A DNA stretch of 64,000 nucleotides, taken from Oscillospiraceae bacterium. GTDB taxonomy: Bacteria > Bacillota > Clostridia > Oscillospirales > Ruminococcaceae. Made by a program: the position numbers and the translations under genes. Shown here in pieces: positions 10,514 through 54,632 of the stretch (position 1 is its first letter; each line of letters begins with the position of its first letter). Under the pieces are notes generated by a model. That model was not told the DNA's origin. It saw only the letters and a list, made by a program, of their open reading frames with translations, and made no database searches. The stretch spans positions 1-64,000 of the forward strand of contig JAITFZ010000022.1 in NCBI GenBank assembly GCA_031280965.1, given 5' to 3'.

Positions 10514-13500
10514 TTATTTGTCTTCTAACCATTTATTTATATCGGCGACCAATGTTTTCGCGTCTTTTATGAACTCATCGTTTAAGGTCTGAACCCCCGC
10601 TATATCGCCGCTTTTCGCCATTGCTTCAAGGTCTTTTGCCCGCATTTGAATTTCCTTTGCGCCGATACTGGCGCTCGCTCCTTTAATAGTATGTACGTCT
10701 ATGCCGTATTCGGACAGGGTTTCTTCGGAAACATCATGCAGTTTTTCAAGCTCGGCGGGAACGTTTTCGGCGAAGGAACGCAGGATTTCCACGTACATTT
10801 CTCTGTCGTCCTCATACAGGGATAATCCTAACTTCATGTTAACGCCGGGAATATCAGCGGATTTTTCAATTTTCGGGAGTTCAGCCTGAACGGCTTCTTC
10901 CGGCGCTTCTGAAGCGCTCTTGTTTGTGTCCGGTGCTTCTGTCTTTGACATTATCCATTCCCTGATAGCAACGTCAAGCTTCACAACATTTATAGGTTTC
11001 GATATAAAGGCGTTGAAGCCGTTTGCGAGGAACATTTTCTCGTTTTCGATGGCGGCGTTGGCTGTAAGCGCGATAATAGGCAGGTTCGCGGAATAATCCG
11101 TACCGAGGGCGCGGATACGCTGTGTTGCCTCCATTCCGTCCATGCCCGGCATCATGTGGTCCATGAAAATTGCGTTATAAACCGGCTTTTCCTTTTTAAT
11201 GCGCGCAATTGCTTCCGGCCCGTTTGTCACGCAGTCCACCTTCATCTTATATTTTCCGAGAACGCCTTTAGCTACATCTAAGTTGGTAGGGAAATCGTCC
11301 ACAACCAGCACCCGCACATAACTAAGGTCAGGGCGCACAAGTCCGCTTGTGTCCTTTTTTTCTATGTAGCGGAATTCACGCAGGTCTGCAATAGTCTGAG
11401 GGCTGATTAATCTTTCGCTGACAAAACCCTGCCGAACTTGAACGCGGAATGTTGAGCCTATCCCGTATTCGCTTTCCACGGATATTTTACCGCCCATAAG
11501 CTCCGCGAGCCGCTTAGTAATCGAAAGCCCCAGTCCTGTTCCTTCTATATTGCGGTTCACTTTCGCGTCTACCTGATGATAGTCCTTAAACAGCTTCTGT
11601 ACATCTTCCTTGCGTATGCCTATGCCGGTGTCATTTACAACGAAGGACAGATTTACATCTCCGTTTTTCATGCGTTCACAGCTTACTTTTAACGTTACCA
11701 TGCCTTTGCGCGTGTATTTGAAGGCGTTGCTGAGCAGATTGTTAAGCACCTGCTTAACCCGCAGGTCGTCGCCGTAAAGCAGGCTGTATACATTTTCGTC
11801 TATATCTAACCTGAATGTAATCGGCTTATCGTCAATACGAATCATATTAAACGTAGCTATATCGTTGAGCAGGCTTGCGATTTCGTATTTGGTGGGCGTC
11901 ATGGTGAATTTTCCCGACTCGATTTTCGATATATCAAGGATGTCGTTTATTATGCCCGTCAGCGTGTTGCCGGATGAGTGGATTTTTTTAAGATAATCCT
12001 TTTGTTCTTCAACCGTCTCGTTTTCGTCAAGAAGCAGTTCCGTAAGCCCCATGATTACGTTCATAGGCGTGCGTATTTCATGGCTGATATTGGCGATAAA
12101 GGCAGATTTCCCCTGATTGGCTGTTTCCGCCTCATCCCGCGCTTTGCGCCGCTCAAAGCCGGAAATAGCCAGCGCCATAAGGTCGGCAAGCGACGACGCG
12201 AAGTTCTGCTCTTCTATAGTCCACTCGCGCTTATAGATATATTCATCGCATATGTTCTGCTCGACACAAACCACACCGATTGTTTTACCGTCTATGCGTA
12301 TTGGCGCATCAAGCGCGGCGCACAGGTAAATGCCGTCGGATATAAGCCTGCACTCTGCCGGCGTATTCATAACGATTAAACGCTCGCTCATAAGCAGTTT
12401 TGCGTATTCCCGCCGCTTCAGCAGATTAAATTCATCAAGCATGGTGCGCTTGTTTGCGGCATTGTCATAACAGGAAAGACATTCGAGAAAATCCGGATTC
12501 TTTCCGAGTCTCCACACGCTTACGCGAAGGGTGTGGAGTACCTTACAGCCCTCCTCCGCGATAATATCGGCGGCGTCTTCTAAATCTCCGGCAGAAATAG
12601 TCGGCGATTTCGTAATATTTGAAAGCACTTCGCTCAGCTTATTTGCGTATTCATAATTCTCGGCTAATTTGCGCTCCGTTTCCTTTCTTCCGGTTATATC
12701 GCGCGCAACTCCTAAAATTCCGATTACTTCGCCATTAAGCATAAGCGGTACTTTTGTGGTTTCATAAAACGGATTTGTTCCGTTGACGTGCGGAATGTGT
12801 TCCTCAACTGTAATTACGCGCCCTTCGGTCATTACCTGCCGGTCGTTCTCCTCGTACCACTCAACCATGTGACCGGGAAGCCCGAGAGATTCCGAATAAT
12901 TTTTTCCCTCAAGGTCTTCCATTTGCTTGTTAAAATGCTCCAAAAGCGCTTTATTACAGTGCATAAAACGGAAGTCTGTATTTTTTGTGAAGATAAGGTC
13001 AGGGATTGAATTAAACAGCGTTGTGAGCGTGGCGGTTTGCAACGCAAGCTCTTTCGTCCGCTTTTCAACTAAGGCGTAGCGGTTGATGGCATTCGCTATC
13101 ATAAGGCACAGCGAGCGCAGAATCGCGATTTCTCCCTCTTCAAAGTCGCGTTCATTTCTTAAATCGTCAATACTGATTAATCCCCATAGCTTATCATCTA
13201 AGAACAGAGGAATAAGCGCGACCGTTTTTATATCGAAATCATTGAAATATTCCCGCTCTTCCTGAAACATCTTTGAAATGGGGCCGCCTATGTGTTCGCC
13301 GCGCATAAATTTTTTCCGCCATTCGGGCATATTCTTAAACGGCGACATCGCGCCTGTGGGGATTCTTCTGCTCTGCTTCCCGAGTTCGCTAAGCCACATA
13401 TATGCGTGAACAAATTCAAAGCCGCCGTTGACACTTTCTTCGTTTCGCCAAACGTGAACACGGTCTGCGTCTATGGCGTGACCCGCAAGCTTCATGCTTT

Positions 13501-14641
13501 CTATGAGCAGTTCCTCAACGTTTTCATTATCCTCGGTTGTAAGCAGTAAAACCGCCGCCTTGTTAACAGCCTGAAGCAGCTTATCTCTTTCTTCAATGCC
13601 TTTCATCATTTTATAATGTTCGCGCAGGTCACGGGTATATCCGATTACAACGTCGCTGTTCTTATATTTAACGCGGATAAGTGTGATTTCGGCAGGGAAA
13701 TCTATGTCTTCGTCGGGAATATGGTGCGTCCAGTCAAAAACGCAAAAACCTTCATCAAACGCCTGGAACACAAGCGCTACGGCTTTTTCATCCGAGCGCC
13801 GCCCGTCAGGCTGATACTCGGGCGAACATTCGGTTAAGAATCTCGCAACATATTCCGCTTTATTTTTGAACTTATATAATCTTACAGCCGCTTCATTACA
13901 GTCGATTGTACTAAGGTTTTTATCCCAGATTTGAATACAGAGCGGCGAACTGTCAAGCATGAGCATCAGGCGTTCCTTTGTTTGCGACGCCCGCTTTGAA
14001 AAGTGTTGCGTCACTACCCATGTAATCAGCAGAAAGACACCGTAAACTATAAACAGGATAATTTGAATATTATTAAGGTATAAATTAACATTCTCGCCGA
14101 CGATATCCGCTCCCAGCAAGCTTATAATATTCCCGTCCGCATCATAAATAGCTGCGTATGCAACTATCAGGTTGCCCCATTCCTCGTCTGCAAGCCAGGC
14201 GGAAGCCACCGGCGCGCCTGCATAAATTTTTTCTTTAATTTCGTCCGAACTGTCTGTATTTCCCGGCGCTGACCAGCTCTCGGAACCGATTGGCTCACCG
14301 TCTAATATAAATTCCCATTCCCCGTTTTCTTTTAACCTCACTGTATAAACATACGACAATTCGCCCCACTCTTTAATTTCGGCAAATTCCGAGTTCATCT
14401 CAATGTAAAAATCCGAGGTTATATCCCGTGTTTCAAGAAACTCCTGATAACGGTCAAGCTCTTTTTCAATTCCCCGCGCCGCCGCAAGGGCTACCCCCTG
14501 AACGTTTTTCATCATATGGTTTTCGAGCATGTTACGCATGAGATAATAGAGGCTTAAATGCAAAATAGCAATTGAAACAATCATCGCCGCCATTATGAAG
14601 ATAACAATGCGGTTTTTATTTAAGTTAAAGAATTTACTCAT
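10514..14641 (-). CDS. Hybrid sensor histidine kinase (PAS-GAF-PAS-GAF-HisKA-HATPase-REC-Hpt)
   Basis: A membrane sensor kinase with a built-in phosphorelay, 1375 residues from the ATG at 14641 (GGAG nine bases ahead). Order: membrane segment about 12-34, extracytoplasmic sensor about 40-188, membrane segment about 192-212, PAS-like about 225-340, GAF about 355-520, PAS about 540-650, GAF about 668-828, HisKA with SHEIRTP (His854), HATPase with N-box NLLSNAFKY and G1 NDTGIG and G2 GTGLGL, receiver with VVDD and Asp1161 and Lys1215, and a C-terminal Hpt with HTIKGAS (His1317). All phosphorelay residues are present. The final target regulator is not obvious; the neighbours are chemotaxis and cyclic-di-GMP genes. 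Confidence 0.93.
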   Translation of the reverse strand: MSKFFNLNKNRIVIFIMAAMIVSIAILHLSLYYLMRNMLENHMMKNVQGVALAAARGIEKELDRYQEFLETRDITSDFYIEMNSEFAEIKEWGELSYVYTVRLKENGEWEFILDGEPIGSESWSAPGNTDSSDEIKEKIYAGAPVASAWLADEEWGNLIVAYAAIYDADGNIISLLGADIVGENVNLYLNNIQIILFIVYGVFLLITWVVTQHFSKRASQTKERLMLMLDSSPLCIQIWDKNLSTIDCNEAAVRLYKFKNKAEYVARFLTECSPEYQPDGRRSDEKAVALVFQAFDEGFCVFDWTHHIPDEDIDFPAEITLIRVKYKNSDVVIGYTRDLREHYKMMKGIEERDKLLQAVNKAAVLLLTTEDNENVEELLIESMKLAGHAIDADRVHVWRNEESVNGGFEFVHAYMWLSELGKQSRRIPTGAMSPFKNMPEWRKKFMRGEHIGGPISKMFQEEREYFNDFDIKTVALIPLFLDDKLWGLISIDDLRNERDFEEGEIAILRSLCLMIANAINRYALVEKRTKELALQTATLTTLFNSIPDLIFTKNTDFRFMHCNKALLEHFNKQMEDLEGKNYSESLGLPGHMVEWYEENDRQVMTEGRVITVEEHIPHVNGTNPFYETTKVPLMLNGEVIGILGVARDITGRKETERKLAENYEYANKLSEVLSNITKSPTISAGDLEDAADIIAEEGCKVLHTLRVSVWRLGKNPDFLECLSCYDNAANKRTMLDEFNLLKRREYAKLLMSERLIVMNTPAECRLISDGIYLCAALDAPIRIDGKTIGVVCVEQNICDEYIYKREWTIEEQNFASSLADLMALAISGFERRKARDEAETANQGKSAFIANISHEIRTPMNVIMGLTELLLDENETVEEQKDYLKKIHSSGNTLTGIINDILDISKIESGKFTMTPTKYEIASLLNDIATFNMIRIDDKPITFRLDIDENVYSLLYGDDLRVKQVLNNLLSNAFKYTRKGMVTLKVSCERMKNGDVNLSFVVNDTGIGIRKEDVQKLFKDYHQVDAKVNRNIEGTGLGLSITKRLAELMGGKISVESEYGIGSTFRVQVRQGFVSERLISPQTIADLREFRYIEKKDTSGLVRPDLSYVRVLVVDDFPTNLDVAKGVLGKYKMKVDCVTNGPEAIARIKKEKPVYNAIFMDHMMPGMDGMEATQRIRALGTDYSANLPIIALTANAAIENEKMFLANGFNAFISKPINVVKLDVAIREWIMSKTEAPDTNKSASEAPEEAVQAELPKIEKSADIPGVNMKLGLSLYEDDREMYVEILRSFAENVPAELEKLHDVSEETLSEYGIDVHTIKGASASIGAKEIQMRAKDLEAMAKSGDIAGVQTLNDEFIKDAKTLVADINKWLEDK

Positions 14642-14673
14642 AAATGACCACTCCATTATGTAGTTTATACCTA

Positions 14674-14702
14674 ATTGTAACATGCTTTTCAGGAAAATGC
14701 AA
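14674..14702 (-). promoter_or_regulatory. Promoter of the hybrid kinase gene
   Basis: On the minus strand TTGCAT (14702-14697), 17-base spacer ending TGT, TACAAT (14679-14674), 33 bases before the ATG at 14641. It gives the kinase its own transcript, separate from the operon upstream. Confidence 0.7.
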
Positions 14703-14724
14703 GAAAAATGCCGAAACAAAAAAG

Positions 14725-15285
14725 TTAATGAAACGGCTTCTTGTTCGCCCCGATGCAAATTTTAGCCAAAACCCGTATTGCTTCTGCCCGCCGCTCCCTA
14801 ATCAGACGGTTAACCTCGTCTTCGTCCGCGGCGTTAAGCACCCTTACATACATCGGCGGCATAAGGTCTAAAGCGCGGTTGGTGATTATCCGCAGACAAT
14901 CATCGCAGGCGCAGGAATTAAAGCGTTCGACCGCCGCTCCGAGCTGCTCATTAATGAGCAGAAGCGGTATGCTTACAATCTGCCTTTCCCCCATTCCGCG
15001 AACATAAACCTTGGGGATGGCGTCCGCTTTGTCGGTGCCTGATGGAGGTTTAAGCGCGGGGTTTTCAAAACCCGGTTCCGACAGCTTTTCAATTTTCATG
15101 TGCTTGACAATGGCTTTCCGCGGTCTTTTTTTATGCTGAACAGGCGGCGGGGTTTCAGGGATTTCGGGCTTAGCGGATTCGCGCAGAACCTTAACCGGCT
15201 GTGGAATATCAACAGCCGGCGTTTCTTTTGTATCGCTAAGGTTTAACAACTTCAAAACATTTGAAGTTTTACTGCTTCTCGGCAT
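14725..15285 (-). CDS. ComFB-family protein
   Basis: 186 residues. Residues about 1-105 are a Pro/Lys-rich, probably disordered arm; the C-terminal part (about 108-178) matches the late-competence ComFB family, with the Cys cluster FNSCACDDC (Cys125, 127, 130), NRALDLMPPMYV and a conserved helical end. Members in cyanobacteria have been reported as cyclic-dinucleotide receptors; in Bacillus the gene sits in the comF operon with unclear role. Here it lies 34 bases downstream of a parA gene in a probable operon with a diguanylate cyclase and a PilZ protein, so a cyclic-di-GMP-sensing role is plausible but inferred. No comFA or comFC is nearby. Confidence 0.82.
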   Translation of the reverse strand: MPRSSKTSNVLKLLNLSDTKETPAVDIPQPVKVLRESAKPEIPETPPPVQHKKRPRKAIVKHMKIEKLSEPGFENPALKPPSGTDKADAIPKVYVRGMGERQIVSIPLLLINEQLGAAVERFNSCACDDCLRIITNRALDLMPPMYVRVLNAADEDEVNRLIRERRAEAIRVLAKICIGANKKPFH

Positions 15286-15319
15286 TTTTTCTCCAATTCA
15301 CAGGGATTTGATTTCAAGA

Positions 15320-16150
15320 TTATAGTATATCCTCCGGGCGCGGGTATTTTCGGGGTCTGCCCCTGCCTAACTTCTTCTCAACCCGCCGGGGTTTTTCGAT
15401 TCCGAGAATTTCACAGGTCAGGTCTTTGAATTCCGCCGCCGACTTTGAACGCGGCGCGTATTCTATTATAGTTTTGCCGTGCGCGGGAGCTTCGGCAAGG
15501 GTTACGCTCTTTAGGATTTTAGTCTCGAAAACATCGGTGTCAAGCTGTTCCGCGACGATGCTCGCGAGGTCTTCGACTTCCTTTGTAAGAATAAGGCGCG
15601 GGTTATATTTATTAAGTAAAATACCGCGTACTTCAAGCGCGTTATTGAAGTACTTCTTGACGGCGAAAATCGTTTCTTTAAGCTGCGACAGCCCCTGTAA
15701 ACTCAAAATCTCCGGTATCATCGGGATTACAAGCCAGTTGGCAGCGGTGTAGGCGTTGATTGTGAGAATCGAAAGCGCCGGAGGCGTGTCTATAATCACA
15801 TAGTCATAATCCGCCGAAATCAGGTCAAGCTGGTCGCGCAGGATATGCTCGCGCCCGATTGAAGTCAGCTCAAGCTCCGCGCCCGAAAGCAGTATGTTCG
15901 AGCAGGCAACGTCACAGTTCTCGGTATGCCTGATTACATCGTGCAGGTCAACCTCACCCTTGAATACATTATATATAGTATACGTGTCCTCTGTTTCCGC
16001 GCCGAGAGAAAAGCTGAGGTTGCCCTGAGGGTCAAGGTCGATGGCAAGCACCGATTTGCCCATTGCGGTCAGACACCCGCAGATTCCCGCGCAGACAGTG
16101 GTTTTCCCAACGCCGCCTTTTTGATTTGTCACAGCGATTATTTTAGCCAT
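15320..16150 (-). CDS. ParA/Soj-type ATPase with AT-hook-like tail
   Basis: A deviant-Walker ATPase of the ParA/MinD superfamily, 276 residues. Visible: NQKGGVGKTT Walker A (Lys11 and Lys16), IDLDPQGN, VIIDTPPAL Walker B, and the C-terminal ParA region. These proteins form ATP-dependent dimers that bind DNA or membrane and position cargo such as chromosomes, plasmids or chemosensory clusters. Residues about 255-276 add a basic tail with GRGRPRK, which is the core of an AT-hook, hinting at A/T-rich DNA binding. No parB or origin is nearby and the gene is not beside flhF, so it is an orphan. Its partner may be the ComFB protein encoded next. Confidence 0.88.
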   Translation of the reverse strand: MAKIIAVTNQKGGVGKTTVCAGICGCLTAMGKSVLAIDLDPQGNLSFSLGAETEDTYTIYNVFKGEVDLHDVIRHTENCDVACSNILLSGAELELTSIGREHILRDQLDLISADYDYVIIDTPPALSILTINAYTAANWLVIPMIPEILSLQGLSQLKETIFAVKKYFNNALEVRGILLNKYNPRLILTKEVEDLASIVAEQLDTDVFETKILKSVTLAEAPAHGKTIIEYAPRSKSAAEFKDLTCEILGIEKPRRVEKKLGRGRPRKYPRPEDIL

Positions 16151-16195
16151 AAGTTACTCCGTTAATTATTCGCTATTAATTTTCATTGTTAATTG

Positions 16196-18199
16196 TCATA
16201 TTGAGCGCATTAATTCCGTCAGAACACTGTCCTTTGGATTATAGATGTGATAATTGCTCTTGCCGTTCTTTTTGACAAAGTACATCGCCTCGTCCGCCGC
16301 GGCAAGAATAGACTCATTATCTCTGCCGTGTTCGGGGGAAATCGCAATGCCGAGGCTGGCTTTGATTTTAAGTGTTATATCGAACTCCTTCGTATAGTAA
16401 CCTTTGTCGAAAAGCTCAAGCACAGCCGCCGCCAGCTTTCCGATATTATTAAGAGTTTCTTCTTCCGTTACGCACATGACGAACTCGTCGCCGCCGAAAC
16501 GACCGGCAAAGCCCGCGCTTCCGAGTTTGTCTTTAATGATGTTCGCGACACACTTGATAATTTCATCGCCTGTATTATGCCCGTATTTGTCGTTTATGAA
16601 CTTGAAGTCGTCAACGTCTATGAAAATCACGCCCACGCGGCTGGTCGCGCTGCGCGTAATTTCCGACTGGAGTTCGCGCATAAATGTATTACGGTTGTAC
16701 AATCCGGAAAGGAAGTCGTAGCTTGCGCGTTCGGACAACTGAAGGGACAGCAGCTTCTCGTTGTTGATGTTGGTGATTACGCCGATGATTCTAAGCAGCT
16801 CGCCCAAGCGGTCAAGTACGCAGTGTGCGCGGATTGAAACCCATATTATGCTTCCTGTTTTGGTTGTCACCTGATACTCGCCGTGCATAGAGTCGCGGCT
16901 TCTCAGAAGCTTGTCTATATCAACTTTATAACGCTCGATGTCCTCTTTTTCCATAAGCGAATCTATGAAGCGACCGTTGATAAGCGTTGCGCGTTCGGTC
17001 TCGACCTCAAACATGCCGGCGAAGTTATCCGATACAAAGAGCGATTCTTTTCTGAAATCCCATTCAAAGAGCATGTTGTCGGAAAGTTCCGAAATTGCGC
17101 GGTGCATTTCACCGCTGATTAACACCTCGTCAAGCATTTCGTTAAAAGCTTCCGAAATGTATGCATATTCGTCGGTTCCTTTAACCATAAGACGTTCGTC
17201 CATGTCGCCCTCGTTGATTCGGCGCATTTTTTTAACGATGTCCTGCGGCGGGACTGTTACGTTTCGTATGATTATAAAAGCAAACACAAGACACGCCGCG
17301 GATATAACCGCAACCACAATAATCATTACTCTTACAAGCATCGGAACCGTGTCGATTGCAGATACCGGATATGTGCCGAACCAGTACCAGCCGTTTTTAA
17401 CGTTGCTTTTGTTGCCGTTTATTGAACCGAAAGAGCCGACATAGCTGTTGGAATTCAGGCTTCCCGAATCCCCTTCGCGACCGGACGTTACAACGCCGTT
17501 AACAATATTTCTCAAAGCGTCCGAGCCGATTTCGCTCATGCGGGCGGCAGAGGTTCCGTTGAGACCGAGCGCCGTGCCTTTTCTGTCGGTGATGAACACT
17601 GCGCCTTCGCCGTCAAAAAAGTCGCTGTTCGCAAGGGTTTCCGCAAACACTTCCGTTGTGAACACCATGCAGATATAGCCGTAAACAACTTCATCATTGT
17701 TTATACGACCTAAGAGGAAAAAGGTGTCTGCTCCGCCGTAAGCGGGGTTGGATAAAGCGATTTCAGACTTGAAGACTTCATTCCTTGCAAGGTTTCCCGC
17801 TTCATCGAAAGCAGGGAACAGCGCGCCTGCATTCCCGAAAAAGTCTATACAGACAATACCGTTGGCGTCGGTTACGATAATATCAAGCAGATGCGGGACT
17901 GTGGCGGCAGTGTTTTCAAACAAGCCGGTAACATCGTCCCTGACGCTGCTGTAATTCCCGTTCGCCGTCGTTTGTATTTCATCAAGCCGGGAGAGCGAAT
18001 GAAGCGCCTGCGCGCATTCATCGAGCAGAACATCAAAACCGACTGCCTGCGCTATGCTGAGCGCGGCAACCTCATCGGTTATTATTTCCTCGGCTTGTGT
18101 CCGCGATGCTGAAATGCCGGTCAAAGTCACGGCTATTACCGGAACCAAAATTGTTACCAGCAAAACCAAGCTGAGGAGCGGTTTTAACCCAATCTTCAT
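16196..18199 (-). CDS. Membrane diguanylate cyclase (dCache-HAMP-PAS-GGDEF)
   Basis: Makes cyclic-di-GMP from two GTP. 667 residues. Order: membrane segment about 7-29, extracytoplasmic dCache-like sensor about 32-285, membrane segment about 289-311, HAMP about 312-362, PAS about 370-480, GGDEF domain about 490-655 with an intact RFGGDEF (569-573), and DFKFINDKYGH for substrate binding. The inhibitory I-site RxxD is absent (LGSA at that place), so simple product feedback is not expected. No EAL or HD-GYP phosphodiesterase is fused. It lies between the PilZ and ParA genes, all on the minus strand with gaps of 71 and 45 bases. Confidence 0.93.
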   Translation of the reverse strand: MKIGLKPLLSLVLLVTILVPVIAVTLTGISASRTQAEEIITDEVAALSIAQAVGFDVLLDECAQALHSLSRLDEIQTTANGNYSSVRDDVTGLFENTAATVPHLLDIIVTDANGIVCIDFFGNAGALFPAFDEAGNLARNEVFKSEIALSNPAYGGADTFFLLGRINNDEVVYGYICMVFTTEVFAETLANSDFFDGEGAVFITDRKGTALGLNGTSAARMSEIGSDALRNIVNGVVTSGREGDSGSLNSNSYVGSFGSINGNKSNVKNGWYWFGTYPVSAIDTVPMLVRVMIIVVAVISAACLVFAFIIIRNVTVPPQDIVKKMRRINEGDMDERLMVKGTDEYAYISEAFNEMLDEVLISGEMHRAISELSDNMLFEWDFRKESLFVSDNFAGMFEVETERATLINGRFIDSLMEKEDIERYKVDIDKLLRSRDSMHGEYQVTTKTGSIIWVSIRAHCVLDRLGELLRIIGVITNINNEKLLSLQLSERASYDFLSGLYNRNTFMRELQSEITRSATSRVGVIFIDVDDFKFINDKYGHNTGDEIIKCVANIIKDKLGSAGFAGRFGGDEFVMCVTEEETLNNIGKLAAAVLELFDKGYYTKEFDITLKIKASLGIAISPEHGRDNESILAAADEAMYFVKKNGKSNYHIYNPKDSVLTELMRSI

Positions 18200-18270
18200 T
18201 TTTTAATTACTCCCTTAAATTTAATGAATGGCGAATAACGAACAGCTGAGCGTTCATTATTAACTGCCGA

Positions 18271-18978
18271 TTAATGTGCGGTTTCTGCGCGTTCGAGCGC
18301 ACGCTGTTCGATTTGCAGCTGATTGATAAACCTTGCCACAACTTCTTCCTGCCGGGAGTTGAGAAAAAGGAAACAGCAGCCGTAACCGTTGATTTCACCC
18401 TCGGGCGTGGTTTTTACCCTCAGCACTTTTGAAACAAGCTCCATGCTTGTTCCAGATGCGTCCTTCAGCACAACCGCCACAATGTCTTCCTGTTTAAGTA
18501 CAACCTGCCTATTGTTCTGAAGAAAAATCCCGCCTATGTTTATATCCAGTATTATGCCGGGAATGGGCGGTTCGACGGCGACATGATTCTCCAGCCGTGT
18601 AATTGAGGTGAGGAGACACGGTATTTCCATCGCGACCTTGTAAAAACGGCGGCGGTCAGGCAGAAGCTCCGCTTCGACCTGGCTGATGGTGATGTTGAGC
18701 TGAGCTTCGGTAGAAACCGCGATATGTCCGGGAAAGCTGAATCTGTCGCCCGCTCTTGTGTGCGCAACGATTATCACACTTGCGTTCCGTGCGAAGACAG
18801 GCAGGTTCTTGCCTTTAATGAAAACGCTGTCGTTTGGCGTAAAATGACTGTTTTCTTTAACTATTTGCTGAGGGAAAGTATAATTCTTCGACACAGAAAG
18901 CAAAGCGCGTCCTTTAAATGTGCAGACATCGACCTTTATAACTTTGTCCTTATCAAGCACTTTATCAAGTACAGGCAC
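18271..18978 (-). CDS. PilZ-domain protein, YcgR-like flagellar brake
   Basis: Probably a cyclic-di-GMP receptor that slows or steers the flagellar motor. 235 residues: an N-terminal YcgR/PilZN-like beta domain (about 10-100) and a PilZ domain (about 107-225). Binding motifs are present but altered: RRRFYK (109-114) has Lys where the last Arg of RRxxxR is usual, and DINIGG (145-150) has Asn for Ser in D/NxSxxG. Starts at GTG 18978 behind a G-rich Shine-Dalgarno. First gene after a sigma-A promoter at 19024-19052, followed by the diguanylate cyclase, so the signal's maker and a reader share a transcript. Confidence 0.85.
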   Translation of the reverse strand: MPVLDKVLDKDKVIKVDVCTFKGRALLSVSKNYTFPQQIVKENSHFTPNDSVFIKGKNLPVFARNASVIIVAHTRAGDRFSFPGHIAVSTEAQLNITISQVEAELLPDRRRFYKVAMEIPCLLTSITRLENHVAVEPPIPGIILDINIGGIFLQNNRQVVLKQEDIVAVVLKDASGTSMELVSKVLRVKTTPEGEINGYGCCFLFLNSRQEEVVARFINQLQIEQRALERAETAH

Positions 18979-19184: not shown

Positions 19185-19913
19185 ATGATGCGTTTTTTTC
19201 ACTGTGACACCGGCAGATACATAAAACGGCGGAAGTATTTATTGTGGATTACCCTGCTTCCGCTTATTCAGGGCTCGGTAATCACCTCGCTTATAGTTAT
19301 TGTTAACTTTCGTGCTTTCTACGAAAAAGGCTATCATTTGCCTGCGATTCGTGCGGTAACGGCGGCGGCTGTGTTCGGTACGCTTGTTTTCTTCGCGACA
19401 TTTTTCATTACCGAAAAGGCGGTAAAACGGAACGCCCGCTACACTTTTTTTGAAATAGGCACAAAGGCGCTGATTTACAGCCGATACAGCGGGGAATACA
19501 TACGCAGGGGAAAGCGCGTCATAAACCGCAGTCTTTATGTTGTTCCGCTGTGTTCTTTAAAAAAAATCGGCTACAGCGAAAAAAAAGGCAGGCTTTATCT
19601 TGAAGCGGACGGGGACGGCGTCGCAAAAATCCGGAAATACCACGATTCAAGCGAACGGCTGAAATATAAATTATCGGACGGCTTCCCGCAGTTCGAGAGC
19701 TGGTGGTACAACGAACACGGCTTCAGGACGCTGACGGTTTTAAAAGTTCCCGCTATTTTCGGCGGTATCGAAAAGCTTTCGGAAATCGCGGAAAATATAG
19801 CTGAGGCGAAAAGAGCTTTTGAAAATACGCCCAAGCCCAAACCTTACGTTCATAAAGAAGCGGATTTTATCAAAAGAAAGCGCGCAATAGAGAAGCTGAA
19901 AAAGCAAAAATGA
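19185..19913 (+). CDS. Two-segment membrane protein, YcxB/PH-like tail
   Basis: Function unknown. 242 residues, starting at one of two adjacent ATGs behind GAGGAG. Two membrane segments (about 19-42 and 55-77) are followed by a cytosolic part in which beta-strand-like stretches (YTFFEIGTKALIYS, IGYSEKKGRLYLEA, RTLTVLKVPAIF) look like the YcxB or bacterial PH-like fold seen in small Firmicutes membrane proteins. The C-terminus is a Lys/Glu-rich helix. It stands alone with its own promoter, just ahead of the motility operon, on the plus strand. Confidence 0.7.
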   Translation: MMRFFHCDTGRYIKRRKYLLWITLLPLIQGSVITSLIVIVNFRAFYEKGYHLPAIRAVTAAAVFGTLVFFATFFITEKAVKRNARYTFFEIGTKALIYSRYSGEYIRRGKRVINRSLYVVPLCSLKKIGYSEKKGRLYLEADGDGVAKIRKYHDSSERLKYKLSDGFPQFESWWYNEHGFRTLTVLKVPAIFGGIEKLSEIAENIAEAKRAFENTPKPKPYVHKEADFIKRKRAIEKLKKQK

Positions 19914-20004: not shown

Positions 20005-20058
20005 GTTCTATGAATGGGTTTGAAATCCGTCCGCGCAAAAAATCAAGGAGGTTCAGAA

Positions 20059-20433
20059 ATGTCGGGATTATTTAATACCACCGCTTTTCGGATAGTTGAG
20101 CAGGGTATAAACATAATGGCGCAAAGCAACAGAATTATTTCCCATAACATATCCAACGCCGATACGCCCGGTTACAAGACCAAGTACTTATACTTCGAGG
20201 GGATTCTCCGCGATAAGATTAACACGAGGGGAACCGAGAAATTCCAAAAAGAGCTTCACATGGGTACGGCGATGTACGTTGACAGAATAACCAAAGGACA
20301 ACCCGACGGCAATAACGTCGATAACGATAATCAGCAGGCATTGTTTGCGAAGAACAGACTGCGTTATGACGCGTTGGTAAATCAGCTTAACGCGGAATTC
20401 GAGTTGCTTCGCACTGCAATGAGAAGGAGTTAA
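20059..20433 (+). CDS. flgB: Flagellar proximal rod protein FlgB
   Basis: A rod subunit of the flagellar basal body, exported by the flagellar type III system. 124 residues from the ATG at 20059 (AAGGAGG ahead; the upstream in-frame ATG at 20014 has none). Carries the rod-family N-terminal motif ISHNISNADTPGYK (about 30-43) and a C-terminal helix for packing. First gene of the long motility operon, with flgC two bases after its stop. Confidence 0.95.
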   Translation: MSGLFNTTAFRIVEQGINIMAQSNRIISHNISNADTPGYKTKYLYFEGILRDKINTRGTEKFQKELHMGTAMYVDRITKGQPDGNNVDNDNQQALFAKNRLRYDALVNQLNAEFELLRTAMRRS

Positions 20434-20435
20434 TC

Positions 20436-20921
20436 ATGGCTTTCTTATCTTATCTTGACATATCCGTGTCAGCAATGGCGGCGCAAAGGCTTCGCACAGA
20501 AGTTATTCAGCACAATGTCGCCAACGCCCACTCCACCCGCACCGAAAGCGGCGGCCCGTACAGAAGGCAGGTAGTGGTCTTCGGGGAGCATCGCCCTTTC
20601 AAAAACATGCAGACGGGCAAAAACTATGTTACCAACAGAAACTTCGGGAGCATACTCGAAATGACTATGGCTGAGCGCCGCCAGAGAAGACTGGCGGGGG
20701 TTCGTGTGCTTCAAATCGTGGAAGACCCGACGCCGCTTACGCCCATCTTTGACCCCACACACCCCGACGCAAACGAGGAAGGTTATTATTATCTTCCGAA
20801 CGTGGATATTGCCGAGGAGCAGATGGATATGCTTGCGGCAACCCGTTCTTATGAAGCCAATCTGACAATTTTCGACGAACTCAAAAACATGGCGACAAAA
20901 GCACTGACCATAGGACGATAA
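20436..20921 (+). CDS. flgC: Flagellar proximal rod protein FlgC
   Basis: Rod subunit next to FlgB in the basal body. 161 residues. The family's N-terminal motif is present as VIQHNVANAHSTR (about 24-36), and the C-terminal VDIAEEQMDMLAATRSYEAN block is typical of FlgC. AGAAGGAG precedes the ATG. The region EHRPFKNMQTGKNYVT is less conserved. Confidence 0.94.
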   Translation: MAFLSYLDISVSAMAAQRLRTEVIQHNVANAHSTRTESGGPYRRQVVVFGEHRPFKNMQTGKNYVTNRNFGSILEMTMAERRQRRLAGVRVLQIVEDPTPLTPIFDPTHPDANEEGYYYLPNVDIAEEQMDMLAATRSYEANLTIFDELKNMATKALTIGR

Positions 20922-20953
20922 AACCAACAGATAAAACAAAAGGAGTATAGAGT

Positions 20954-21262
20954 ATGATGAATCCGGTAAAATTTCAGCCGCTTCAGCCTTTGCAGAACCC
21001 GTTTGAGCCGCCGAAGCCGCAGAGTGAGCAGAAAGTCGGCGCGCCGACTTTCCTCGACGTATATAAAAGCATAGTCGGGGGAGCCGCCGCCACACAGGAG
21101 CAGAAATCGCAGGACATGCTTGACCTCATGCTCGGCGATGTTGACGACCTTGAACGGATTCAATCAAATATAACCAAGGCGCAGATTTCCCTTGAGCTGT
21201 TGGTTAACGTCAGAAACGTAACGCTTGAAGCTTACAACGAAATAATTAAAATGAGCATTTAA
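20954..21262 (+). CDS. fliE: Flagellar MS-ring/rod junction protein FliE
   Basis: Joins the MS-ring to the rod. 102 residues, the usual size. The N-terminal third is Pro/Gln-rich; the C-terminal two helices hold SQDMLDLMLGDVDDL and the conserved ISLELLVNVRNVTLEAYNEI ending. Two ATGs in a row (20954, 20957) follow AAAGGAG; either is possible. Third in the operon, in the standard flgB-flgC-fliE order. Confidence 0.94.
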   Translation: MMNPVKFQPLQPLQNPFEPPKPQSEQKVGAPTFLDVYKSIVGGAAATQEQKSQDMLDLMLGDVDDLERIQSNITKAQISLELLVNVRNVTLEAYNEIIKMSI

Positions 21263-40517: not shown

Positions 40518-42614
40518 ATGCTGAAACGCATGCTTGACAATGTATTCGCGGTATTTGTCATAATCATCGTGCTTGCGCTGATTATTCCGCTTAATAAAAC
40601 GCTCGTGGACTTTCTTATAGCCACGAACATTGCGTTGGCTATAATAATACTGCTCATTACACTTTACATAAAGGAAGCGCTGGAGTTTTCCATTTTTCCG
40701 TCAATCCTGCTTATAACAACGGTTTTCCGGTTAGCGCTTAGTATTTCGACCACAAGATTAATACTCAGCAGTACCGGCGGAGCCGAGGTAACGGCGGCGG
40801 CGGGGAATATTATACAGGCTATCGGAAACTTCGTAATGATGGACAACCCCGGTGTAGGTTTTATCATTTTCGTAATCCTTGTTCTTGTGAACTTTTTGGT
40901 TATTACAAAGGGTGCCGAGCGTGTTTCCGAGGTTGCGGCGAGATTTACGCTCGACGCTATGCCCGGTAAACAGATGGCGATTGACGCCGACCTTGCGGCG
41001 GGCGCAATTGATGACGAGGAAGCCAAGGAAAGACGCATAAAGGTTCAGCGCGAAGCGGACTTTTTCGGCGCTATGGACGGTGCGGTTAAATTCGTTAAGG
41101 GCGACGCCATAATGGCTATTGTTACGATGATAATAACACTTGTCGGCGGAATGGCTTTCGGTTTGGCGGGCGGAATGGAGCTTGATGAGGTTTTAGGTTC
41201 ATATTCGCTTGCGACAATCGGCGACGGACTAAGCTCGCAAATCCCCGCTCTGCTTATCGCGTTCGCTACCGGTATGGTTGTTACCAGAACGGCAAGCACC
41301 GGAAGCTTCGGCATTGAGCTTCGCACACAGTTCGGGCAGAACCCCACGGTTATGTTCATAGCCGGCATGGTGGCTTACGCATTTATGTTTATACCCGGCT
41401 TCCCCTTGATGGTATTCTTTGTTATAGGTTCAGTGCTGTTGACGCTCGGTTTTTACCTCAGACGGCAGAAGCTTGCGCTCGCAGCTATTACTGAGCAGGA
41501 AGAGCAAATGCAGGCACAGATTGAACAGGAGCAGGCGGCGGCAGAAACGGCAGGCAGCGAAGAGTATTACCGCGACATCGACAATGTGTTTAAGCTGTTA
41601 TCGGTTGACCAGATTGAGATGGAGTTCGGTTATAGTCTGCTTCACCTTGTTGACGAAAAGAGCGGCGGAAGCTTTATTGAGCGCCTTGTTATATTCCGCA
41701 AGGACTTCGCGATGACGATGGGCATGGTGTTTCCGTCGGTTAGGATGCGAAACAATCCCGAAATCAACCCCAACCAGTATGTAATCAAAATCAAAGGCGA
41801 AGAAGTCGCAAGGGGCGAAATACTCGCCGACCACTACCTTGCGCTTGATAACGGCGATGTAACCACGCCTGTTGACGGCATAGATACGATTGAACCGGCG
41901 TTCGGAATACCTGCGCGCTGGATAAGCGAAGACAAGAAGGTTATGGCGGACGTTGCGGGCTATACGCTGATTGACCCTGTTTCGGTTATGATTACGCACT
42001 TGTCGGAGATTATAAAACAACACTGTCATGAAATTCTGTCGCGTCAGGACGTAAAGACGATGATTGACAACATGAGACAAACCAATCCGAGCGTAATCGA
42101 AGACCTGATTCCGAACATGGTAAGCGTTGGTTATCTGCAAAGGGTGCTTTCCATGCTACTTAAAGAAGGTATACCGATTCGTGATATGGAAACTATTCTC
42201 GAAACGCTTTCCGAGAATGTTTCCGCGCTTAAAGACATGGATATTATCGTGGAATATGTAAGGCAGGCGCTGAAGCGTACAGTTACAAGGCGCTTCGCGG
42301 AAGCCAACGCGCTTCGGGTAATTACACTCGACCCGCGTATTGAAGACTCGATTATATCCAACGTTAAAAAGACCGACCGCGGAAGCGTTTATGTTCCCGA
42401 CCCCGATGCGGCGCAGACGATAATCGCAAAAACCACGGAAGAAGTCGAGAAAGTCAAGGACGTGCTTCCGAGCGTAATTGTTCTCACCTCGCCTATTGTC
42501 CGCGTATACTTTAAAAGGCTTATCGACCAGTATATTCCGGGACTCACCGTCCTTTCATATAACGAAATAGATAATACAACGCAAATTCAGGCAGTCGGAA
42601 ACATCACCATGTAA
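40518..42614 (+). CDS. flhA: Flagellar export platform protein FlhA
   Basis: Nonameric export ring and proton channel. 698 residues: about eight membrane segments in the first 320, the FHIPEP-type conserved loop with TKGAERVSEVAARFTLDAMPGKQ split over about 128-155 and QMAIDADLAAG, and the four-domain cytosolic half. Usually followed by flhF and flhG in Firmicutes; here fliA follows after 15 bases. Confidence 0.96.
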   Translation: MLKRMLDNVFAVFVIIIVLALIIPLNKTLVDFLIATNIALAIIILLITLYIKEALEFSIFPSILLITTVFRLALSISTTRLILSSTGGAEVTAAAGNIIQAIGNFVMMDNPGVGFIIFVILVLVNFLVITKGAERVSEVAARFTLDAMPGKQMAIDADLAAGAIDDEEAKERRIKVQREADFFGAMDGAVKFVKGDAIMAIVTMIITLVGGMAFGLAGGMELDEVLGSYSLATIGDGLSSQIPALLIAFATGMVVTRTASTGSFGIELRTQFGQNPTVMFIAGMVAYAFMFIPGFPLMVFFVIGSVLLTLGFYLRRQKLALAAITEQEEQMQAQIEQEQAAAETAGSEEYYRDIDNVFKLLSVDQIEMEFGYSLLHLVDEKSGGSFIERLVIFRKDFAMTMGMVFPSVRMRNNPEINPNQYVIKIKGEEVARGEILADHYLALDNGDVTTPVDGIDTIEPAFGIPARWISEDKKVMADVAGYTLIDPVSVMITHLSEIIKQHCHEILSRQDVKTMIDNMRQTNPSVIEDLIPNMVSVGYLQRVLSMLLKEGIPIRDMETILETLSENVSALKDMDIIVEYVRQALKRTVTRRFAEANALRVITLDPRIEDSIISNVKKTDRGSVYVPDPDAAQTIIAKTTEEVEKVKDVLPSVIVLTSPIVRVYFKRLIDQYIPGLTVLSYNEIDNTTQIQAVGNITM

Positions 42615-42629
42615 AGGGTGTGAGATTTT

Positions 42630-43370
42630 ATGGCGGCGGACAATACCGTGTTATTTAAGAAATTTAATGAAACTCGTGACGTAGAAATCCGTAACGAGTT
42701 AGTACTGATTTACATGCCGGTTGTCAAGTACGTAGCCATGTCGCTCAGGAATGTCTACGCAAAATACGGCGACCTTGACGACATTGTTAACGAGGGCGTA
42801 ATCGCGCTTATTAACGCTGTTGAAACCTTTGATATCGGCAGAGGTGTAAAGTTTGAGACTTATGCCAACTTAAAAATCAAAGGCGCGATTATTGACTACG
42901 TAAGAAAGCAGGACTGGATACCGCGTCAGGTGCGGAAGTTCGGGAAAGAGCTTGACGAAACCTACAACACGCTTTATACCGAACTCGGGCGTTCACCCAC
43001 CAACAATGAACTCGCCGAGAAAATGGGTCTTACTAAAGAAAAATTCGCCAAATGCATGGCTGATACGGCGGGCTCCATGACATTGTCGTTTGAGGAACTG
43101 CTGTATGAGGACAACTTCAGCGACAAAGGCGGGCTTGCGAACGAGGCAGACAGAAGCATATATGAAAAGGAACTGAAGCAGGTTGTCGCCGCCGCAATAG
43201 ATGCGCTCAACCCGAAAGAAAAGCAGGTTATTTCCCTGCACTACTACGAAAGGCTCAAATTCGCGGAAATAGCGAAAGTTATCGGCGTTTCGGAATCGCG
43301 GGTGTGTCAGATTCACTCAAAATCAATGTTGCACTTAAAACGCAAACTTGAAAACTACATAAAAATGTAA
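42630..43370 (+). CDS. fliA: Flagellar sigma factor FliA (sigma-28/SigD)
   Basis: Directs RNA polymerase to late flagellar genes such as flagellin and chemoreceptors. 246 residues with region 2 (YVAMSLRNVYAKYGDLDDIVNEG and TYANLKIKGAIIDYVRKQD), region 3 (GRSPTNNELAEKMGL) and region 4 (LHYYERLKFAEIAKVIGVSES). No FlgM anti-sigma gene is in the window, and I found no clear sigma-28 promoter here. Confidence 0.94.
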   Translation: MAADNTVLFKKFNETRDVEIRNELVLIYMPVVKYVAMSLRNVYAKYGDLDDIVNEGVIALINAVETFDIGRGVKFETYANLKIKGAIIDYVRKQDWIPRQVRKFGKELDETYNTLYTELGRSPTNNELAEKMGLTKEKFAKCMADTAGSMTLSFEELLYEDNFSDKGGLANEADRSIYEKELKQVVAAAIDALNPKEKQVISLHYYERLKFAEIAKVIGVSESRVCQIHSKSMLHLKRKLENYIKM

Positions 43371-53385: not shown

Positions 53386-53396
53386 CTAACTAACTT

Positions 53397-53450
53397 CAAA
53401 ACCACCCCTTGATTGCGGAATTAACTTTCCGCAATCAAGGGGTGGTTTTG
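53397..53450. terminator. Bidirectional terminator between pyk and pilT
   Basis: A perfect 23-base inverted repeat (53397-53419 with 53428-53450) around an 8-base loop, with AAAA/TTTT at the stem ends on both strands. Separates two convergent genes. Confidence 0.92.
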
Positions 53451-53462
53451 ATTAAAATATTT

Positions 53463-54632
53463 TCAGTTCAGTTCCGGTCTTGCAAGCGGGTCGTCCATCA
53501 GCTTCCTTGTGCCTGCCTTAGCGCTGACCGCTGTATTCGAGTGTGCGGTTTTAAGGTTCATGTACGCCGCGTCAAGATAACGTATAAACTCGTTCGGTTC
53601 CTGACAGCGGGTCAGAGCCTCTTCTCTCTTAATCCTGCTCTGCGCCGTTAGCCTTGCCAAATCCTGGTCAAGCGTGAACATGCCTTTTGCCCGCCCTGTT
53701 GCAATCGCGCTCGGAATCTGATAGGTCTTGCCTTCGCGGATTAACGCGGAAATAGCGTCTGTGCTGTTCAGCAGTTCCATCGCCGCTACGCGCCCCTGCC
53801 CGTCGGAAGTCGGAACGAGCGTCTGCGATACAATGCCTACAACGTTGTTCGCAAGCTGTGAGCGGCACTGCCCCTGTGAGTGTGGCGGGTAGGTGTCGAT
53901 TATACGGTCGAGCGTTTCCGCCGCGCCGGTGGTATGTAGGGTAGACATAACAAGGTGTCCGGTTTCTGCCGCCGTTACCGCCGCGGAAATCGTTTCGTGG
54001 TCACGCATTTCTCCCACGAGTATAACGTCGGGGTCTTCACGGAGCGCGGCTCTGAGAGCAAGCGCGAAACTGTTGACGTCAACGTTAACTTCGCGCTGGT
54101 TTATCATTGACTGCTTGTGTGTATGCAGATACTCTATCGGGTCTTCTATAGTGATGATATGGCAGTTTTTGTAGCGGTTAATGTGGTCAATCATTGCGGC
54201 AAGGGTTGTGGATTTACCCGAGCCGGTAGGGCCCGTTACGAGAATCAGCCCTCTCGGACGCAATGAGAAATCCGCCAAAAGCGGAGGCAACATTAAATCG
54301 TTGAGCGTCGGAATATCATTGCGTAACAATCTGAACGCTATAGCGTGATAACCGCGCTGACGATAGACGTTGACCCTGTGGCGGTGTCCCGCCGCGCTGA
54401 CATAGGAGAAGTCCGCGTCGTCGCCGCGCTGAATGACCTGTTTGTGCTTTAATGTGGTAATCTGATTAATTACGTTGACTATAATCGGCTCGGTACAGTC
54501 GGGATAACCATGAAGTTTTTGAATACGTCCGTGCAAACGCACCATCGGCGGCAACCCCGCCGTAAAGTGCAGGTCAGAACAACCAAGCTCACGAGATTCG
54601 TCAAGAATATCGTTAATCATTACATCTTTCAC
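53463..54632 (-). CDS. pilT: Type IV pilus retraction ATPase PilT
   Basis: Hexameric ATPase that pulls in type IV pili. 389 residues from GTG 54632 behind GGAG. N-terminal PAS-like half (SDLHFTAGLPPM), Walker A GPTGSGKSTT (about 134-143), Asp box EDPIEYLH, Walker B VILVGEMRD, His box HLVMSTLHTT, and the retraction signature AIRNLIRE seen here as AISALIRE. No pilB, pilC, pilin or prepilin peptidase is near; the rest of the system must be elsewhere or missing. Confidence 0.93.
   Translation of the reverse strand: MKDVMINDILDESRELGCSDLHFTAGLPPMVRLHGRIQKLHGYPDCTEPIIVNVINQITTLKHKQVIQRGDDADFSYVSAAGHRHRVNVYRQRGYHAIAFRLLRNDIPTLNDLMLPPLLADFSLRPRGLILVTGPTGSGKSTTLAAMIDHINRYKNCHIITIEDPIEYLHTHKQSMINQREVNVDVNSFALALRAALREDPDVILVGEMRDHETISAAVTAAETGHLVMSTLHTTGAAETLDRIIDTYPPHSQGQCRSQLANNVVGIVSQTLVPTSDGQGRVAAMELLNSTDAISALIREGKTYQIPSAIATGRAKGMFTLDQDLARLTAQSRIKREEALTRCQEPNEFIRYLDAAYMNLKTAHSNTAVSAKAGTRKLMDDPLARPELN

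Follow-up and report, generated by a model that had tools for sequence, protein, structure and literature searches.

The four-gene set and its conserved core

We analyzed a window of 64,000 nucleotides from an Oscillospiraceae bacterium (the whole stretch, positions 1 to 64,000 of contig JAITFZ010000022.1), in which four minus-strand genes encode a PilZ protein, a membrane diguanylate cyclase, a ParA ATPase and a ComFB-family partner protein. The PilZ protein (18271–18978, 235 amino acids) is predicted to be a two-barrel protein with a fold closest to Bacillus subtilis MotI/DgrA and matched PilZ with 37.6 bits, and domain searches resolved the cyclase (16196–18199, 667 amino acids) into Cache-like, HAMP, PAS and GGDEF domains. 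The ParA ATPase (15320–16150, 276 amino acids) matched AAA_31 with 179 bits and has an intact KGGVGKTT, and the partner protein (14725–15285, 186 amino acids) consists of a basic N-terminal motif, KTSNVLKLL, a variable arm and a C-terminal ComFB domain. The gaps of 71, 45 and 34 bases between these genes, in the order PilZ–GGDEF–ParA–ComFB, were confirmed. Ahead of the set lies a promoter-like site (19052–19024, minus strand, TTGATT-17-TATACT) agreeing with the consensus at 9 of 12 positions, a modest match in a search that returned 16 such sites against 6.1 expected; the stretch is kept almost identical in three relatives whose PilZ identity is 51–67%. A cyclic di-GMP (c-di-GMP) riboswitch was rejected as a candidate, as Rfam at gathering scores gave a transfer RNA (tRNA) and nothing else in the window, and a repeat search of the window revealed nothing accounting for the operon.

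A contig scan located the same four genes, together with a divergent neighbor and flgB, in three Oscillospiraceae assemblies, with the ComFB-type protein 57–68% identical. The recurrence of this order in other genomes shows that the arrangement is not due to chance. In single-query searches of 148 genomes of the family, the ComFB-type protein matched 32 and the PilZ protein 24, and a profile search with 32 rows raised this to 48 genomes with ComFB of any form and 45 with the long form. The pair of ParA and long-form ComFB is thus conserved outside this strain, a point on which an earlier note on this DNA had made its proposal depend, being present in 45 of the 148 genomes.

At all 52 loci ParA lay immediately upstream of long-form ComFB, with gaps of up to ~300 bases; these 52 pairs comprise the 45 from the family sample, G015, G265, G306 and G389, and L032–L034, with G049 known from coordinates only and the ParA of G016 being a fragment at a contig end. 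The window type of PilZ accompanied 20 of the 52 pairs, all belonging to one ParA clade, and was seen adjacent in 18, while the remaining two loci are either split over two contigs (G070) or have PilZ on another contig (G136). The GGDEF cyclase was found at 8 of the 52 loci, between PilZ and ParA in seven and next to ParA in G070, where the contig ends. Based on these counts, GGDEF and PilZ were rejected as core members: the conserved core is the adjacent ParA–ComFB pair, to which PilZ is a clade addition and the cyclase a sub-clade addition. The four-gene unit proposed in the earlier note is therefore a real conserved set, of which the ParA–ComFB pair is the unit that is conserved throughout.

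None of 93 stand-alone ComFB loci from the class sample, some of them cut by contig ends and two (G241, G375) being weak matches in frames of 427 amino acids that are perhaps not ComFB, had such a ParA within 1.5–2.5 kb on each side. In G281 the profile match begins early and crosses a stop, the ComFB frame being 87 amino acids long with no ParA in 15 kb. Conversely, all 17 ParA genes without ComFB that were opened are followed by a gene that we take, from its sequence, to be ParB-like. The window's own genome also carries a stand-alone true ComFB (L166:6660–6923, contig 28, 88 bits), and weaker PilZ matches of another kind occur in pair genomes of other clades, ~4 kb (G109) and ~13 kb (G029) from the pair. 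In G015 (L060:8757–9320) the four-gene order is kept and the ParA is still 76% identical, but the zinc cysteines of the ComFB-type protein are gone, perhaps a case in which the zinc site was lost naturally. Alignment A1 excludes G015, G089 and G122 as divergent, G084, where the wrong downstream gene was picked, and G049, which had no locus; ComFB counts over 50 rows exclude G084 and G049.

Properties of the encoded proteins

The partner proteins share a layout of a short conserved N-terminus, a variable arm and a C-terminal ComFB domain. Although the window protein scored only weakly against Pfam ComFB PF10719 (13.5 bits, E 0.075; gathering score 25), relatives exceeded the cut-off (G129, 67.6 bits; G306, 57.3 bits; G051, 57.7 bits), and the family profile matched 4wai (ComFB) with E 7e-9 and, weakly, 8hja (CdgR, a c-di-GMP receptor) with E 0.03. 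C125, C127 and C130 were invariant in 32 aligned rows, H186, the last residue of the window protein, was conserved in at least 90%, and CxCxxC was present in 48 of 50 partners, missing in G089 and G015. By homology these four residues are putative zinc ligands, corresponding to the set of B. subtilis ComFB, CxCxxC with a C-terminal Cys or His (PMC4381287). The AlphaFold2 model of the window partner was confident only from residue 101, with a predicted local distance difference test (pLDDT) score of ~50 or less over residues 1–100, and its five best Foldseek matches were 4wai and 8hja with probabilities of 0.90–1.00. A chance ComFB annotation was therefore rejected: the Pfam score of the window protein is weak, yet profile, zinc motif and predicted fold agree and together make the homology secure.

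The first 25 residues carry a net charge of +2 or more in 41 of 50 partners, and the type of N-terminal motif tracks the ParA clade. The KT type occurs in all 26 proteins of the PilZ-type clade (20) and its neighbors (6), and an IMP type occurs in a third ParA clade, in 21 proteins by pattern, including G016 although it lies outside the tree; in G057, G096 and G113 the sequence departs from the IMP pattern by one letter. Very long acidic arms were observed at L160, L161, L162 and L211, in proteins of 303–606 amino acids in total with an arm net charge of −36 to −159. The window type resembles ComFB of B. subtilis and ComFB/CdgR of cyanobacteria in its CxCxxC with C-terminal His/Cys and in its fold, but differs in its N-terminus, extended by tens to hundreds of residues, its ParA neighbor and its flagellar setting without a comF operon. 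Cyanobacterial ComFB is a dimer that binds cyclic di-AMP (c-di-AMP) and c-di-GMP with micromolar affinity (PMC12313861), and by analogy the window-type domain may bind either nucleotide.

In ParA, both lysines, two glycines and the T of KGGxGK[T/S] are kept in 49 of 50 proteins, the one other row being gapped there. A maximum-likelihood tree, from which G016 (fragment) and G049 (coordinates only) were left out, set the 50 ComFB-linked ParA proteins apart by one branch (91/72) and 17 Soj proteins by another (92/92), with FlhG far away. The tree also holds a tyrosine kinase of the window's own genome (row MinD_own) on a very long branch, from which no conclusion was drawn. Soj was the nearest subfamily among the ParA proteins compared, and the order of ATPase followed by partner is likewise that of Soj–Spo0J (ParA–ParB), from which the pair differs in having a ComFB-like protein in place of ParB. 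One of the arginines that we take to be DNA contacts of Soj is kept as R (36) or K (8) in 44 of 50 ParA proteins, and the second is lost. Together with the best NCBIfam match of the window ParA, ParA_partition below its cut-off, the proximity to Soj would fit a ParA that partitions chromosomes or plasmids and works with a substitute for ParB. We regard this as highly improbable, given that the same genome has a separate Soj followed by a ParB-like gene (L164) and that the pair tracks flagella (see below); a ComFB protein would, moreover, not be expected to bind a centromere.

The earlier note had listed the basic, AT-hook-like GRGRPRK tail among the features of the set; we found this tail in 5 of 50 ParA proteins, a lineage-specific trait, and dismissed it as a core feature. 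It forms the C-terminus of the window ParA, as read from the sequence rather than from a membrane-helix prediction. The window ParA begins MAKIIAVTNQKGGVGKT, with Walker A near residue 10, leaving no space for the N-terminal helix DQAxxLR that, with a C-terminal membrane-targeting sequence, characterizes FlhG (PMC12826062). ParA shares 26–29% identity with the genes that follow flhF at four control loci.

The PilZ protein model had its best solved match in 5vx6 (MotI/DgrA), followed by MrkH and YcgR, at a mean pLDDT of 72 and with the five models disagreeing. While the predicted two-barrel fold and the flagellar neighbors thus resemble MotI/DgrA and YcgR, the window group differs from them in carrying RxxxK for RxxxR and (D/N)xNxGG for (D/N)xSxxG in 20 of 20 proteins, the latter of each being what we take to be the canonical c-di-GMP motifs. 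Both canonical motifs are retained by the PilZ protein of G023, a genome without the pair. As the canonical motifs are replaced, reading of c-di-GMP by the window-type PilZ is doubtful. For the cyclase, dCache was weak (16.8 versus a cut-off of 45), alongside HAMP, PAS and GGDEF (126 bits). In an alignment of operon cyclases the active site reads GRFGGDEF or GRFGGDEY in 7 of 7, and GRFGGDEF in the window, where no RxxD, presumably the I-site motif, precedes it; the description of a membrane cyclase without I-site accordingly holds. The further proposal, that c-di-GMP is made, read and used by the set, applies at most to a sub-lineage, as PilZ and GGDEF accompany 20 and 8 of the 52 pairs and the PilZ motifs are non-canonical throughout.

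Distribution with flagella and FlhF–FlhG

FlhA was present in 50 of the 148 family genomes, and the long-form pair in 44 of these 50 versus 1 of the 98 others (Fisher test, 7e-30). The single pair genome lacking FlhA, G047 (73% complete), was entered as FlhA-negative; the genes adjoining its pair resemble the ones that precede flgK in G129, to which the names flgM and flgN were given by position, and for this reason it is probably flagellated too. In at least five genera (g18, g30, g31, g41, g42) flagellated and non-flagellated species are mixed, and in all five the pair occurred only in the flagellated one. All 24 PilZ matches fell in FlhA genomes. Counting ComFB of any form, 47 of the 50 FlhA genomes were positive, and G047 was the only further genome with a match.

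The link to flagella drawn in the earlier note is borne out by these data, which also disfavor its pilus option. A role of the ComFB-type protein in type IV pili or DNA uptake, with an incidental flagellar link, would be in line with Synechocystis ComFB, which controls pilus genes and competence (PMC12313861), and with the PilT-like T2SSE ATPase gene of the window (53463–54632), located downstream of the flagellar and chemotaxis genes. We consider it very unlikely in view of the 44 of 50 versus 1 of 98 distribution, judged by flagellar rather than pilus genes, and of the five within-genus contrasts, which point the same way. For B. subtilis, deletion of ComFB is described as leaving transformation unaffected (PMC4381287).

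FlhF exceeded its cut-off in none of the 148 family genomes, the best match in the window's own genome reaching 69.7 bits against a cut-off of 174. Consistently, flhA is directly followed by a fliA-like sigma factor gene in the window (40518–43370, plus strand), with nothing between and thus no flhF–flhG, and fifteen other loci of FlhF-less genomes showed the same order without a gene-sized gap; four FlhF loci serving as positive control had the order flhA, flhF and ParA-class gene. Four AAA_31 matches were found in the window's own genome, namely Soj, the window ParA, a tyrosine kinase and a frame of 76 amino acids. MinD was rejected there, since the C30 match proved to be a polysaccharide-type tyrosine kinase (TIGR01007, 187.7 bits).

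In a class sample of 291 genomes, FlhA was present in 112, FlhF in 102 and both in 101. The pair occurred in 5 of the 11 genomes with FlhA and without FlhF (G000, G015, G265, G306, G389) and in none of the 101 with both (Fisher test, 3e-6; 4e-4 when leaving out the window's own genus). Among the eight f31 genomes with FlhA, seven had FlhF and no ComFB match, and the one without FlhF, G389, had the pair. The distribution of the pair in the class sample is hence complementary to that of FlhF–FlhG, which we regard as suggestive rather than final because few lineages are involved.

Flagellar or chemotaxis genes were found near the pair at 27 of the 40 widely viewed loci, 14 of 20 PilZ-type and 13 of 20 others; the other 12 loci were viewed over ~3 kb or as coordinates. 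The neighbors include flgB–flgC–fliF, flgK–flgL, FapA and flhA–fliA–cheC–cheD. In G389 (L161:8742–10935), an EAL-HDOD gene and a CheW-receiver gene adjoin the pair, possibly a further link to c-di-GMP. In the window, the divergent neighbor encodes a membrane protein of 242 amino acids (19185–19913, plus strand), for which no Pfam or NCBIfam family matched and which recurs at 16 of the 20 PilZ-type loci if the window is counted. It is followed by the start of a flagellar operon, three genes (20014–21262, plus strand) that we take from their sequence and order, rather than from a family search, to be flgB, flgC and fliE.

Such surroundings would also suit a pair that positions or partitions chemoreceptor arrays rather than flagella, in the manner of the array-positioning systems ParC/ParP and PpfA/TlpT. 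Flagellar and chemotaxis genes form one cluster in the window, the pairs of G051, G140, G306 and G389 lie within ~2.5 kb of cheC–cheD, that of G389 with the CheW-receiver gene alongside, and the flagellated G068 and G087, which are without the pair, had no cheC–cheD match in the stretch fetched. On the other hand, G053 and G064 have cheC–cheD and no pair, flgB–flgC lie near 14 of the 20 PilZ-type loci and flgK–flgL near others, and the system that the pair complements in its distribution, FlhF–FlhG, acts on flagella; judged from the loci opened, an array role therefore appears rather unlikely to us. The finding that PilZ–ParA–ComFB heads the flgB operon at several loci bears on another possibility, that the pair controls flagellar gene expression or assembly number without a placing role, as FleN/FlhG restrains its activator. 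Precedents are the repression of fliA by MinD in Escherichia coli and the control of flagellar number by FlhG in Campylobacter jejuni (PMC12826062). We judge this to be unlikely, because a ParA with a basic-N-terminus partner has the layout of positioning systems (PMC10241942).

The window contains several further features. Directly downstream of the ComFB-type gene lies a large hybrid sensor kinase gene (10514–14758, minus strand; PAS, GAF, HisKA, receiver, Hpt), whose listed TTG start overlaps the ComFB-type gene and for which an ATG at ~14641 seems the better start. An inverted repeat (53396–53451), perfect over 25 bases and enclosing a loop of 6 bases, is perhaps a terminator between convergent genes, and a tandem repeat with an 18-base period (1053–1196) lies within an open reading frame. 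Four stretches, 69–100% alike and resembling part of the tRNA-Ala gene at 2080–2155, were identified within 800 bases (2130–2922), a region in which ARAGORN predicted one tRNA only.

A candidate system for flagellar placement

Taken together, the observation reported in the earlier note was confirmed and its interpretation partly supported. The conservation of the pair, its co-occurrence with flagella, the absence of FlhF and the homology of the parts are established by computation. The layout of a positioning pair, the flagellar setting and a distribution complementary to that of FlhF–FlhG therefore suggest that the pair places flagella or limits their number. We give an even chance to the reading that it is a flagellum-dedicated ParA/partner system for positioning or number control, standing in for FlhF–FlhG and possibly gated by cyclic dinucleotides. 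Like FlhF–FlhG, it combines a ParA/MinD-class ATPase with a flagellar gene region, but it has no FlhF and no N-terminal activation helix, and its partner is a ComFB protein. As in McdA–McdB and other ParA positioning pairs, its ParA adjoins a partner that combines a separate domain with a basic N-terminus, likely disordered; the difference lies in this domain, here a zinc domain of the ComFB type that is related to a receptor for cyclic dinucleotides.

Several observations weigh against this reading. Five FlhA genomes of the family, G023 (78% complete), G053, G064, G068 and G087, are without a recognizable pair, and the partner of G015 is degenerate and devoid of the cysteines, indicating that flagella can exist without the pair. 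Likewise, 6 of the 11 class genomes with FlhA and without FlhF (G158, G196, G237, G302 [61% complete], G330 and G334) carry neither of the two systems within the reach of the searches. The contrast seen in the class involves few lineages, as G000 and G015 belong to one genus and, in the tree, the ParA of G265 groups with those of G306 and G389, so that a small number of transfers, or a single cluster type that they share, may account for it. Flagella and chemotaxis arrays cannot be told apart by co-occurrence, and cheC–cheD are frequent neighbors of the pair. At the level of the proteins, support for the ComFB-linked ParA branch is moderate (91/72), and loss of the second Soj DNA arginine makes nucleoid binding by ParA uncertain. 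Foldseek E values for the ComFB model were 0.02–0.13, none below 0.001. Nine of 50 N-termini fall below +2, a figure that starts called too early may have shifted, and the arm, with a net charge of +6 in the window protein, is negative in most (median −3).

In the mechanism that we infer for a flagellar placement system, a ParA–ATP dimer would sit on a matrix, more likely the nucleoid than the membrane. Partners of ParA/MinD use a disordered, basic N-terminus to dock on the ATPase and hold the cargo with the remainder (PMC10241942); correspondingly, the ComFB-like protein would dock with its basic N-terminal peptide on the ParA dimer and lead to ATP hydrolysis and release, as ParB, McdB and MinE do. 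The variable arm would connect this peptide with the ComFB domain, which as a zinc-bound dimer would hold a flagellar part as cargo. If this domain binds c-di-GMP or c-di-AMP, flagellar placement or number could follow the second messenger. In the lineage of the window, PilZ with its MotI/YcgR-like fold might in addition act on the motor, with the membrane cyclase of the same operon supplying c-di-GMP. ParA–ComFB would in this way substitute for FlhF–FlhG, which is absent from these bacteria.

More tentatively, we put forward as a possibility that an undescribed system for flagellar placement and number took over from FlhF–FlhG in Oscillospiraceae and a few other Clostridia, with a cyclic-dinucleotide receptor as cargo adaptor, so that a second messenger would set the site and number of flagella, and with cyclase and PilZ added to the operon here. 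ParA positioning as such is already known; new would be a ComFB protein as the partner, and the dedication to flagella in place of FlhF–FlhG. The ParA–ComFB pair was not named in the literature searched, which consisted mostly of titles and abstract openings and had subscription papers and preprints outside its scope. Occurring in most of the flagellated genomes of a large family, the pair is a concrete candidate, and it gives ComFB a likely partner and setting. It would also offer a simple way to test whether a nucleotide second messenger is tied directly to positioning of the ParA type.

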